A stretch of DNA of 64,000 nucleotides, taken from Cytophagaceae bacterium. GTDB lineage: Bacteria; Bacteroidota; Bacteroidia; Cytophagales; Cytophagaceae. Shown here in pieces: positions 26,528 to 31,171 of the stretch. How positions within the stretch are numbered: the first letter of the stretch is position 1; each line of letters begins with the position of its first letter. Position numbers and translations under genes: made by a program. The stretch is from contig JALONH010000013.1 in NCBI GenBank assembly GCA_025455005.1, forward strand, positions 1 to 64,000, written 5' to 3'. The notes below the pieces were generated by a model, which worked only from the letters and a program-made list of their open reading frames with translations, was not told the origin of the DNA and searched no databases.

Positions 26528-29092
26528 TTATTGTATTACTATTTTTTCTACGGCTATACCGGACGTAGTTGGAATTTTTAAAACATAAACTCCGGATTCT
26601 AAGCCTTGTACCGGAATTTCAAGGGTTGCCGTAGCACTGCTCGTCTTTACGGTGTAAACCTGTCCGTGAACATTGACTAATTCAATCGAACCTGAAACGG
26701 TATACGGCATATCGACATATACTTTATCGGAACTCGGTACCGGATACACCCGAATGGTGGCATCTTTTAAAATGGCTGAAGCGGTGTTCGTCGGTTGATT
26801 TACAACGAAGGTAAAGGCATCCGGTTCTATTCCTGAATGTAGGGCTTGAATGGAGCCTAAATTGTATACCAACGGTGCGTTCCAGTTGATGGCAATTTCA
26901 TTTGTAGAGTAACTACAAGTTAAGTCTGTATAGGACAATGCTGGTAATGTAGACGGATAGGAACAGCCGCTTTCCGGTTGTCCGGGGTAAGGACCACCGA
27001 CTAAGTATCCCGGTATAGGCGCTAGAATATTATCGGCTTCCATCGGACGATGGTGTGGATTCACCGGCGACTTGGTTCCAAATCCCGTGACATAACAATA
27101 GTTTAATGGATTTCTACCCAATAAATAATCCATGTTACCTATCGCAGCGCGTAGATACGAACTGTCTTTGGTATAATAAAAGGCTTGTAACAACACGAGT
27201 GATTGATTCGCAGCGATAGAATTACTTCCCCAATTAAATTGATTGTTATTCCCACCCATGGCAATTTTATATGCAGACGTAGAGGTGGCATGATTGCGCA
27301 AGTTATTCGCAGTACTAAGCAAGCGGTTGCGCAGAACGGTCGTATCGACGACTGTATAGATTTGTTTGCGGTAATGGTTTAACGAAATGATGCCCAACAT
27401 ATTCGTTCCCGGCCAACTTGGTGTATCGGCCCACATGGTAGGGCTGTAGTCGGCGTAATAGGAAGGATTTTTAGTAGTAACAAATAATTCAGCGGCAGCC
27501 CAATTGAATTCATCGGACACGTTATTATCACCGTATTCACCGGTATTGATATCCGGATTAAAGTTTACGTTGAGGGTACTTTGTACATAATATACAGCAG
27601 GATTGTTAAGTGCCCATTGGTACGCCCGTATGGCCGCTGCGATGCATTGTGAACTAAAGCCCGGTTTTTGTGCTTCAAATTTAGAAAACACCCGAGCTGC
27701 TTGAGCCATTACTGCGGCAAAATTAAGAGCTGCTGCCGTCGATTTTTGAACGACGTACCGAGCTGCTGTAGCATTGGCAGGCATTACCGTTCCGTCAAAA
27801 TTCGGATTGGTTAATTTGTGGTAAACACCGCCATCTGCCGGGTCTTGCATGGTCAACATCCATTCTAGGTTCCATAATACTTCATCTAATATATCCGGTA
27901 AGGCATTATTATTTTCCGGTATGTTTAAAGATAATGTATCAAAATACGGAGTGAAATGTTCGTATGCGGCTAACAAGGTATAGGTTGAAATACCGGAGTT
28001 TACAATGTACTTATTGTAATCACCGGCATCGTACCATCCTTTAGGGCTACTGATAATCGTATTGGTAGGTCGACTAACGGTAGCAGCCGAAGCATGTACT
28101 AATACTGACACATCGGCGTGGCCTGCAGCTCGAGCCCAAGTACCGGCATATTGTGCAGGTAATGCGGTAGAGGCTCTTTGGTAATAATACATTTTGATTG
28201 CCGCTTTTTCAATCGTGTTGTAAATCTTATCTGAAATGACAAACGAATACGAAGGATTGGCCAGACCGTTAACCCGTATTTTGTATCTACCGGGCGTCGT
28301 AAAGGAAGAAAAATTAGCCGTCTTTACAATTTCTCCGGATGGTGCCCAAGAAACAGCCGTTGATAGATTGCCGATATAGAAAACTTGACTCCCGTCTTCT
28401 GAGATCACCTCAAACGTAGAACCGTTTCCACCATTGACAACGGCAATTTTTTCACCGTTAGGGAAAAAACCAATTTGATTTAATTTAATCCCGACTAAAT
28501 TACTATTGGAAACCAAAACTGCTTGGTCTCCTATTTTTACATCGTCTATAAGGATATCTCCAAAAAATCCGGGAGTAGTTTCACTGCCCGGGTTTAAATA
28601 GATGAAAATTCTATTAATTCGCGTTACATCTTGTGGCCCAGCAGAAGGGGGGCCAAATCGATGGAAGAAATCAGTATAACTAAATGTATATTCATTAAAG
28701 CGGGCATCTGTTGTTATGGTTTGTCTAACTTCAGTATTGTTATTCGTTCTTCCGTTCACATCTACAACGTCGATTCGCATTACTAAAGGAGCTGTATTTG
28801 TTCCGGCACGTACTTTAATTGATACATATGGATTATCAGTCATATTGATTGCTGGAAATTGAAAAACAAAATAAGGCCATCCAACTCCAGTTGTATTTGC
28901 ACTTACTCTTAAACATCTACTTTCTATAGAAGTATTGTTTGGTTGAAAACTTAACGTGTAATTACTCGTCAACCATGACGGTACCGACCAACCGGTAATA
29001 TTTCCGTCTTCAAAATCATCCGATACTCCAGTTTGAGCATTAGATGTAAAATAGAACATCCAACTAAGGGTTAAAATCAATAGTCTTTTCAT
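26528..29092 (-). CDS. Glycoside hydrolase family 9 cellulase with N-terminal carbohydrate-binding-like module and T9SS domain
   Basis: ATG 29092 (MKRLLILTLSW) begins a signal peptide; an upstream GTG at 29122 is unlikely. 854 residues. About 22-195: beta-sandwich resembling a carbohydrate-binding module (DDFEDGNITGWSVPSW ... FGDILIDDVKIG). About 200-290: CelD_N-type Ig domain (LNQIGFFPNGEKIAVV). About 295-770: GH9 (alpha/alpha)6 barrel with catalytic DAGD (Asp355, Asp358), GRNPLNYCYVTGFG plus PHHRP, and proton-donor Glu732 in STNEIAINWN. C-terminus: type A T9SS domain (VYPVPSSDKVYVDM). Endo-acting cellulose or beta-glucan hydrolysis at the cell surface is expected. Confidence 0.93.
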   Translation of the reverse strand: MKRLLILTLSWMFYFTSNAQTGVSDDFEDGNITGWSVPSWLTSNYTLSFQPNNTSIESRCLRVSANTTGVGWPYFVFQFPAINMTDNPYVSIKVRAGTNTAPLVMRIDVVDVNGRTNNNTEVRQTITTDARFNEYTFSYTDFFHRFGPPSAGPQDVTRINRIFIYLNPGSETTPGFFGDILIDDVKIGDQAVLVSNSNLVGIKLNQIGFFPNGEKIAVVNGGNGSTFEVISEDGSQVFYIGNLSTAVSWAPSGEIVKTANFSSFTTPGRYKIRVNGLANPSYSFVISDKIYNTIEKAAIKMYYYQRASTALPAQYAGTWARAAGHADVSVLVHASAATVSRPTNTIISSPKGWYDAGDYNKYIVNSGISTYTLLAAYEHFTPYFDTLSLNIPENNNALPDILDEVLWNLEWMLTMQDPADGGVYHKLTNPNFDGTVMPANATAARYVVQKSTAAALNFAAVMAQAARVFSKFEAQKPGFSSQCIAAAIRAYQWALNNPAVYYVQSTLNVNFNPDINTGEYGDNNVSDEFNWAAAELFVTTKNPSYYADYSPTMWADTPSWPGTNMLGIISLNHYRKQIYTVVDTTVLRNRLLSTANNLRNHATSTSAYKIAMGGNNNQFNWGSNSIAANQSLVLLQAFYYTKDSSYLRAAIGNMDYLLGRNPLNYCYVTGFGTKSPVNPHHRPMEADNILAPIPGYLVGGPYPGQPESGCSYPSTLPALSYTDLTCSYSTNEIAINWNAPLVYNLGSIQALHSGIEPDAFTFVVNQPTNTASAILKDATIRVYPVPSSDKVYVDMPYTVSGSIELVNVHGQVYTVKTSSATATLEIPVQGLESGVYVLKIPTTSGIAVEKIVIQ

Positions 29093-29118
29093 AGATTTTC
29101 CTAATTTTATACAAGTAT

Positions 29119-29140
29119 ACACCTACATATAATTAGGTGT
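29119..29140. promoter_or_regulatory. Palindrome upstream of the GH9 cellulase, candidate operator
   Basis: ACACCTA (29119-29125) and TAGGTGT (29134-29140) separated by 8 bases, starting 27 bases upstream of the GH9 start codon. A -7-like TATACTTG (one mismatch to TAnnTTTG) on the minus strand overlaps it, as expected for a repressor site. Inference from symmetry and position only. Confidence 0.35.
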
Positions 29141-29287
29141 TCAAGTTTTTGCAAAATATTTAGAAAAAGTAGTAATTTTAGCTGATTCATTATCACCTAA
29201 ATTCCTCACTCAGTACCCCAATACCCCATTCAATTTCAGGTACTTTAACTAATTTTAAGTATATTTAACCCGTTCTAATACCCCTAT

Positions 29288-31171
29288 ATGAAAAAAATGC
29301 TTTTCGGACGTATTCTTGGGTTCTTTTTCTTTATTATAGGCATGGGAGCCTTCGCCCAATTACAGCCCATAGTTTTAGAAAAAGAGCAAATACATATTGA
29401 CAATGATACTGTATTGAAGGTAGCCTCTATCCGGGTCATCCCCTTTTCTGAATTAATTCAACATCCGTCCCTCCTATCTTACCAAACCGTTTCCTACACG
29501 CAATCCAAAGATTCTATTTATTGGATCAAATTTAAAATTAGTAATCCCAATCAAGAGGTTTGGCTTTTAGAACTTCCGGATCCTCACTTGCAATTCGTGG
29601 AAGTTCATTTTACCGATACGCTTGGAAACATCCTTCGGTCCTATACCGACTTTGGATTCAATCGTCCTTTTATTCAAAAAATCATTCAACATAAAAATTT
29701 GGTGGTCGATATTCCTATACACTCATCGGATATCTGGGTGTATATTCAAGGTCGTTCCTTTATGGCCTCCAGTTTATCCATTCGATTAAAAAAACAACAC
29801 TTTTTTATCGACTACTCCTTAGATGAATATTTCTTACTGGGGATTTATTATGGAATCATCTTGATTATGGGAATTTACAATCTCTTTTTATTTTTTAGTA
29901 CGAAAGACAAATTGTATTTGCTCTACATCCTATATGTTATAGGTTGTGCATTGAATTCCTTCTCGGAAGATGGAATGGGGTTTCAATATGTTTGGCCTAA
30001 TCAACCTTTGTGGAACAACTATATCATCATGTTGAATCCCTTTTTTCTACTCATGGTCTTTATTTTATACTCGAATGCATTTTTAGAAATCAAAAAAAAT
30101 GAACCCTTGTGGTATAAAGCGATATGGATTTCCTATGCTGCATTTTGCGGTTTTCAATTGTATAACTTCCTCTCCTACCCGCGTTGGCGATTGTCTGAAA
30201 CCTATTTAATTCCGTTTCTATTACTTTATATCACTTCTATTATCATCTACCTAAAAGGACATAAGTTCGCTCGTTTTTATGTTCTCGCTTACACTATGAT
30301 AGTAGTATCCTTTGCTATTTTTATTTTACGAACCTTAGGTTGGATTTACAATTCTACGTTTGTCATTTATAGTTTCAACTTTGGTTTTTTGACTGAAGTG
30401 GTCATTTTATCTATTGCGTTGAGTGATCGTTTTAAAATGGAGCGATTAGAACGAGAGCAAGCACAGCGGCAAGCTATCCTTCAGTTAGAAGAAAATGCCT
30501 CATTAAAAAATACGTTAATTGAAGAGTTGAAAATAAAAGAAGAATGGCAAGACAAGGTGAACCGTGAATTGGAATCAAAAGTGCAATCCAGAACGGTAGA
30601 CTTACAACGTAAGACGAGTGAACTGGAAGAATTTAATCAAAAATTATCCGGTTTGGTTGAAGAATTAAATTCAATGAACATCAAATTAGACGTTGATAAT
30701 TGGCAGTTAAAACAAAAAGTACAAGAAGAAGTTAAGGCACGATTAACGGATGAAGTCGTTACGAAAGATACCTTCCAAGCTATCTATCCGAACGAAGCGG
30801 CTTGTATGCGGTATTTAGAAGAATTAAAATGGGGTAATGGGTATACCTGTAGCAAATGCGGACATACTAAATACATGCTACACCAATCCCCTTTTGTTCG
30901 TAAATGTACCACCTGCAAACAAGTTGAATCGGTAACGGCAGGTACTTTATTTCACAGTGTGCGTATGCCGTTGGATAAAGCCTTTTACATTGTATACGAT
31001 ACCATTCGACATGTAGAGCCTCAAACGCTGGAAGCACTTTCAACTCACTTAGAAATAAACAAAAATACAATTTGGGGATTTCGTAAAAAGGTTAAAACGT
31101 TTGAAGAAGAATTTATACTTCGTAACAAACGAGATCCAAAATGGGAAGAAGTCCTTTTACTACAAAAATAA
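29288..31171 (+). CDS. 7TMR-DISM membrane sensor with coiled coil and IS1595-like zinc-ribbon output domain
   Basis: 627 residues. Signal peptide (ending AFAQ); about 25-165 match a 7TMR-DISM extracellular sensor domain (SKDSIYWIKFKISNPNQEVW); about 180-380 are seven hydrophobic helices (LGIYYGIILIMGIYNLFLFF); about 385-495 is a long coiled coil. Instead of a kinase or cyclase, the C-terminus carries a zinc ribbon with Cys521, Cys524, Cys540 and Cys543, in a context (YLEELKWGNGYTCSKCGH ... CKQVESVTAGTLFHSVRMPL) typical of the N-terminal part of IS1595-family transposases. The transposase catalytic domain is absent. Suggests a membrane receptor with a DNA-binding output of transposase origin. 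Converges on the ydcH gene through a shared terminator. Confidence 0.75.
   Translation: MKKMLFGRILGFFFFIIGMGAFAQLQPIVLEKEQIHIDNDTVLKVASIRVIPFSELIQHPSLLSYQTVSYTQSKDSIYWIKFKISNPNQEVWLLELPDPHLQFVEVHFTDTLGNILRSYTDFGFNRPFIQKIIQHKNLVVDIPIHSSDIWVYIQGRSFMASSLSIRLKKQHFFIDYSLDEYFLLGIYYGIILIMGIYNLFLFFSTKDKLYLLYILYVIGCALNSFSEDGMGFQYVWPNQPLWNNYIIMLNPFFLLMVFILYSNAFLEIKKNEPLWYKAIWISYAAFCGFQLYNFLSYPRWRLSETYLIPFLLLYITSIIIYLKGHKFARFYVLAYTMIVVSFAIFILRTLGWIYNSTFVIYSFNFGFLTEVVILSIALSDRFKMERLEREQAQRQAILQLEENASLKNTLIEELKIKEEWQDKVNRELESKVQSRTVDLQRKTSELEEFNQKLSGLVEELNSMNIKLDVDNWQLKQKVQEEVKARLTDEVVTKDTFQAIYPNEAACMRYLEELKWGNGYTCSKCGHTKYMLHQSPFVRKCTTCKQVESVTAGTLFHSVRMPLDKAFYIVYDTIRHVEPQTLEALSTHLEINKNTIWGFRKKVKTFEEEFILRNKRDPKWEEVLLLQK

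Follow-up and report, generated by a model that had tools for sequence, protein, structure and literature searches.

A seven-transmembrane receptor of a Cytophagaceae bacterium with a putative DNA-binding output module related to IS1595 transposases

The window analysed here is a stretch of 64,000 nucleotides from a Cytophagaceae bacterium (GenBank assembly GCA_025455005.1, contig JALONH010000013.1, positions 1 to 64,000 of the forward strand). It contains a gene for a membrane receptor, which is oriented divergently from a gene encoding a GH9 endoglucanase. The features of the locus are as follows:

26528..29122, likely start 29092, minus strand: candidate target, encoding a GH9 endoglucanase that ends in a T9SS sorting tail (PF00759, E 4e-87; CelD_N; Por_Secre_tail)
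29093..29287, no strand: promoter region shared by the two divergent genes and candidate operator zone (alignment, shuffle test, repeats)
29288..31171, plus strand: receptor gene, 627 aa, 7TMR-DISM with an IS1595-type zinc ribbon and helix-turn-helix (HTH) output (open reading frame, Pfam, AlphaFold2)
29288..29359, plus strand: signal peptide, residues 1-24 (hydrophobic N-terminus with last residues AFAQ, read from the sequence; helix 2-22 in the model)
29495..29788, plus strand: 7TMR-DISMED2 periplasmic domain, residues 70-167, presumed to be sugar-sensing (PF07696, E 3.8e-11)
29825..30430, plus strand: 7TMR-DISM_7TM membrane domain, residues 180-381 (PF07695, E 5.3e-47)
30371..30751, plus strand: signalling helix or coiled coil, residues 362-488 (long AlphaFold2 helices; conserved N.EL..KV..RT motif)
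30764..30922, plus strand: two short helices and a four-Cys zinc ribbon (PF12760; invariant Cys 521/524/540/543)
30971..31126, plus strand: helix and HTH of IS1595 N-terminal type, residues 562-613 (AlphaFold2 helices; HTH-only profile match)

By Pfam, the sensor half of the protein is a full member of the 7TMR-DISM receptors (PF07695, PF07696). The membrane domain scores 160.8 bits against a curated cut-off of 29, and the 7TMR-DISMED2 domain behind the signal peptide scores 43.5 bits against a cut-off of 22. A full-length AlphaFold2 model (pLDDT 84.6; input alignment of 59 sequences) has a beta-rich periplasmic domain followed by a transmembrane bundle. Further along, long helices span residues 362-434 and 444-488. 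The ribbon, at residues 529-548, is three-stranded, and behind it lie three helices at 562-574, 581-588 and 592-613. The same order of a long signalling helix, three-stranded ribbon, helix and HTH is found in a model of the C-terminal 188 residues (pLDDT 81.3). Whereas the known outputs of 7TMR-DISM receptors are histidine kinases, GGDEF domains and similar enzymes, the predicted cytoplasmic end here carries an output-like ribbon and HTH module of DNA-binding type (Pfam, AlphaFold2). The other three 7TMR-DISM proteins of the same genome have histidine kinase domains at their C-termini. Neither a histidine kinase, a receiver nor an AraC-type HTH was detected by Pfam in the window receptor, and the same holds for 59 full-length receptors and the Pfam-scanned beta-propeller forms described below.

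The ribbon matches the Pfam model Zn_ribbon_IS1595 at residues 501-545 (E 2.8e-9, 37.2 bits against a curated cut-off of 25.4), and its Cys 521, 524, 540 and 543 are invariant across 59 sequences. HTH positions are near-invariant in 55-59 sequences, most strongly in the second HTH helix, with its T..W pattern. DNA binding by the module can be predicted from this HTH together with the basic charge of the segment: the mean net charge of ribbon plus HTH is +8.6 in 76 receptors, compared with +11.2 in 20 transposases. The DDE_Tnp_IS1595 catalytic domain is absent from the window receptor (Pfam), nor does it occur anywhere else in the genome, and a reading of the gene as an active transposase was rejected.

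An IS1595-type HTH lies behind the ribbon of the window receptor (hhalign). When the ribbon was excluded and HTH-only profiles of 17 regulators and nine distant IS1595 transposases were compared, they aligned over 57 gap-free columns (hhalign, probability 98.7%, E 3e-16). NF033547, an IS1595 transposase model whose first positions align just behind the ribbon, matches the HTH segment of two standalone relatives (5e-7 and 2e-9); the window protein itself has no match to it. Structural comparison of the C-terminal model returned no Foldseek match in the PDB below E 0.001, while VIA-align gave weak HTH matches to homeodomains and TrpR (Z 5-6), a similarity that may reflect merely a shared three-helix arrangement. 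No solved structure was found below E 0.04 in a sequence search. Judged by sequence comparison, the zinc ribbon and HTH are homologous to the N-terminal region of IS1595 transposases, and the DDE core has been lost. IS1595-family transposases (PF12760, HTH and PF12762; NF033547) share a homologous ribbon and HTH with the receptor, which differs from them in lacking DDE_Tnp_IS1595 and in carrying the module at the C-terminus of a receptor.

An earlier sequence-only reading of this DNA had described a 7TMR-DISM sensor joined through a coiled coil to a four-Cys ribbon of IS1595 type with no transposase core, an architecture confirmed here by Pfam, AlphaFold2 and the invariant cysteines. The "helical segment" it had placed behind the ribbon is borne out and can be refined, by the HTH-only comparison, to the HTH that IS1595 transposases carry in their N-terminal region. 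A C-terminus with no match to any transposase zinc ribbon, or a fusion limited to a single strain by recent chance insertion, had been named beforehand as results that would refute this reading. Neither holds: the C-terminus matches in both ribbon and HTH, and the fusion recurs widely.

A tree was built from 95 modules, and in it a single branch with support of 100/98 separates the 79 regulator modules from all others. Rooted on other IS1595 transposases, the regulator modules nest inside the IS1595 family, where their nearest neighbour is the many-copy group from genome G198, followed by L113. This tree rests on 117 columns, which are too few to order the exchanges between sensors; the longest branches were removed, among them a diverged third copy from the window genome. 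One clade of regulators nested within transposases is what would be expected if the module had been domesticated a single time and later passed between sensors, and the proposal that the module is a domesticated transposase part is supported accordingly. In G198, an IS1595-like protein of ~310 aa occurs in 20 or more diverged copies (L111, L126 and L135 among them), and the DDE motifs look degenerate in those copies that were read. From its sequences, this sister group may represent a second, separate domestication.

The window genome encodes two further diverged 7TM-ribbon copies, with C-terminal identities of 34 and 32%. The third copy of the genome, on contig C31 (L147:7415-9288, minus strand), is split into two frames of 177 and 412 aa, and is either a pseudogene or the product of an assembly error; it adjoins a GH1 gene and a LytS/LytR-like pair. 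Module matches were found in 26 of 39 genomes searched, with up to 14 per genome and mostly in open frames of ~600-680 aa. Across the order, 129 of 291 genomes have a match, as do 56 of 115 genera, counts in which the listed best matches are mostly receptor-sized and weaker ones may include transposases. A phylum-wide sample gave matches in 45 of 296 genomes, many of them in transposase-sized frames. From a scan of the genomes of 84,980 species with a six-row alignment profile, 80 loci were kept, all titled as Bacteroidota or its subgroups. Each of the 59 full-length proteins scanned with Pfam is a 7TM receptor; DISMED2 is present in 58 of them, and the ribbon model matches 55. The homology to transposases could in principle mean that an IS element inserted recently by chance or gave rise to a gene-fusion artefact. 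Against this stand the three diverged copies in a genome without an IS1595 DDE domain, the spread of matches over roughly half the genera of the order and the single well-supported clade, so that this explanation is refuted. A chance fusion is excluded because two more diverged copies exist in the genome and the architecture recurs across Bacteroidota; the fusion proposed earlier is old and widespread, not an insertion of one strain.

The same ribbon and HTH are also found on other sensors and alone. Five proteins with Reg_prop/Y_Y_Y beta-propeller sensors carry the module (L072, L073, L141, L142 and L143); in L143 the propeller was assigned by Pfam and the module by the A2 profile, and L141 was assigned by reading its sequence. 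In these proteins the ribbon and HTH stand where a kinase or a different HTH would usually form the output. Three further proteins of 141-151 aa (L090, L091 and L112) consist of the module only, without a sensor or catalytic domain, and could be soluble transcription factors, as their sequences suggest. They branch first among the regulator modules in the tree.

The genes adjacent to the receptors point to polysaccharide utilization. In 26 of 68 loci the immediate downstream gene is SusC-like by Pfam, and in 26 of 26 of these it is co-directional; the background figure for comparison, a few percent of genes at most for SusC, is general knowledge. SusD follows SusC in five of five cases checked, and three further SusC-like neighbours lie upstream and divergent. 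The remaining 42 of 68 downstream neighbours are not SusC, and several are unrelated, such as a patatin and a PAS/GAF protein. Other neighbours of receptor genes encode GH2 (five), GH3, GH9, GH16, GH43 and CBM6 proteins. Adjacency to susCD and/or glycoside hydrolase genes is seen both in the window, with its GH9 gene, and in relatives, with SusC and SusD. The divergent receptor-GH9 pair is kept in three Cytophaga genomes, namely C. aurantiaca (L031), an uncultured Cytophaga (L032) and G012 (L144), the last of which we take to be C. hutchinsonii ATCC 33406; the GH9 proteins of the conserved pair share only 47-48% identity. A second paralog in G012 (L145) lies directly downstream of a GH3 gene. 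The receptor ortholog of G012 lies at about 1.936 Mb, and going by map position only, the GH9 gene of G012 is likely CHU_1655. The CHU_1655 protein is reported to reach high abundance on filter paper; attempts to obtain mutants failed, and the gene or its neighbourhood has been suggested to be essential (PMC6247017). This recurrent adjacency to SusC/SusD and glycoside hydrolase genes strengthens the earlier view of the protein as a one-component receptor, with DNA binding and targets as predicted parts of that view.

When the intergenic stretch separating the GH9 gene from the receptor gene was aligned four ways, 47 columns were invariant; shuffles, which take no account of common descent, gave a mean of 23 and a maximum of 36. 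Conserved blocks lie at about 29106-29120 and 29138-29142, and from their sequence they look like the GH9 promoter core. An inverted repeat, ACACCTA-N8-TAGGTGT, at 29119-29140 is a possible operator; it also scores as terminator-like, and by eye it is not kept in the Cytophaga intergenic sequences. The alignment, shuffle test and repeat search identified no operator in the divergent region. This result would suit a module that has ceased to bind DNA and instead makes protein-protein contacts, as zinc ribbons are generally known to do often, for example by recruiting RNA polymerase, a sigma factor or a regulator to the membrane. We regard such a role as quite unlikely, since the HTH is retained and is most invariant in its second helix, the segment is still strongly basic, and the module stays beside candidate target genes in the manner of local transcription factors.

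We conclude that the receptor is, with a probability of roughly 0.8, a one-component regulator that sits in the membrane and controls polysaccharide utilization genes, in which DNA binding, ligand and operator are predicted elements. A sugar, here probably a cello-oligosaccharide, would bind the periplasmic DISMED2/7TM part, and a conformational signal would pass through the 7TM bundle to the coiled coil, the presumed site of dimerisation. On the cytoplasmic side the ribbon and HTH, formerly the target-recognition part of an IS1595-family transposase, would then bind an operator at the neighbouring promoter. The adjacent gene would be switched in this way: the GH9 cellulase in the window, and susCD operons or other glycoside hydrolase genes in relatives. 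Ligand, dimerisation, DNA binding and targets of the receptor are all proposed here by inference. A precedent for sugar-phosphate sensing by a DISMED2-bearing sensor is offered by SagS, which is reported to respond to glucose-6-phosphate (PMC8544897).

The DNA-binding part could potentially be released by regulated proteolysis before it acts, a variant compatible with the one-component regulator. We consider this step unlikely: no protease partner is seen beside the receptor gene, and Bacteroidota sensors of the HTCS type are generally known to act from the membrane. HTCS and sigma/anti-sigma regulators likewise use a sensor in the membrane to switch genes and are found beside susCD and glycoside hydrolase genes, and some members of the ribbon-HTH family share the Reg_prop/Y_Y_Y sensor with HTCS. 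In contrast to both, the receptor lacks a kinase, receiver, AraC-type HTH, sigma factor and anti-sigma factor, and its output is IS1595-derived. In concept, and as general knowledge, ToxR and CadC are also single chains that cross the membrane, with the sensor in the periplasm and an HTH in the cytoplasm. Their winged HTH is N-terminal, whereas here a seven-TM sensor precedes a C-terminal ribbon and HTH, and we claim no homology between them.

A review of hemicellulase regulation lists HTCS, ECF-sigma/anti-sigma pairs and catabolite repression as the common systems, with no occurrence of "7TM" or "zinc ribbon" (PMC10766802). In the searchable literature no paper was found that links 7TMR-DISM to a zinc ribbon, to transcription in Bacteroidetes or to polysaccharide utilization, though a prior mention is possible. 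For IS1595 with 7TM or domestication, no title or abstract concerned such a receptor.

It seems rather probable that these proteins form a large and hitherto unrecognised class of Bacteroidota polysaccharide sensors, in which an IS1595 DNA-binding head domesticated once has become an interchangeable output for 7TM, beta-propeller or no sensor, so that signals would act directly on the DNA to control susCD operons and a Cytophaga cellulase. In the receptors, a bacterial transposase would have yielded its DNA-binding domain as the output of a sensor, and the case is a clean one. They also provide a candidate regulator for the GH9 cellulase of Cytophaga, a genus in which little is understood of how the digestion of crystalline cellulose is controlled.
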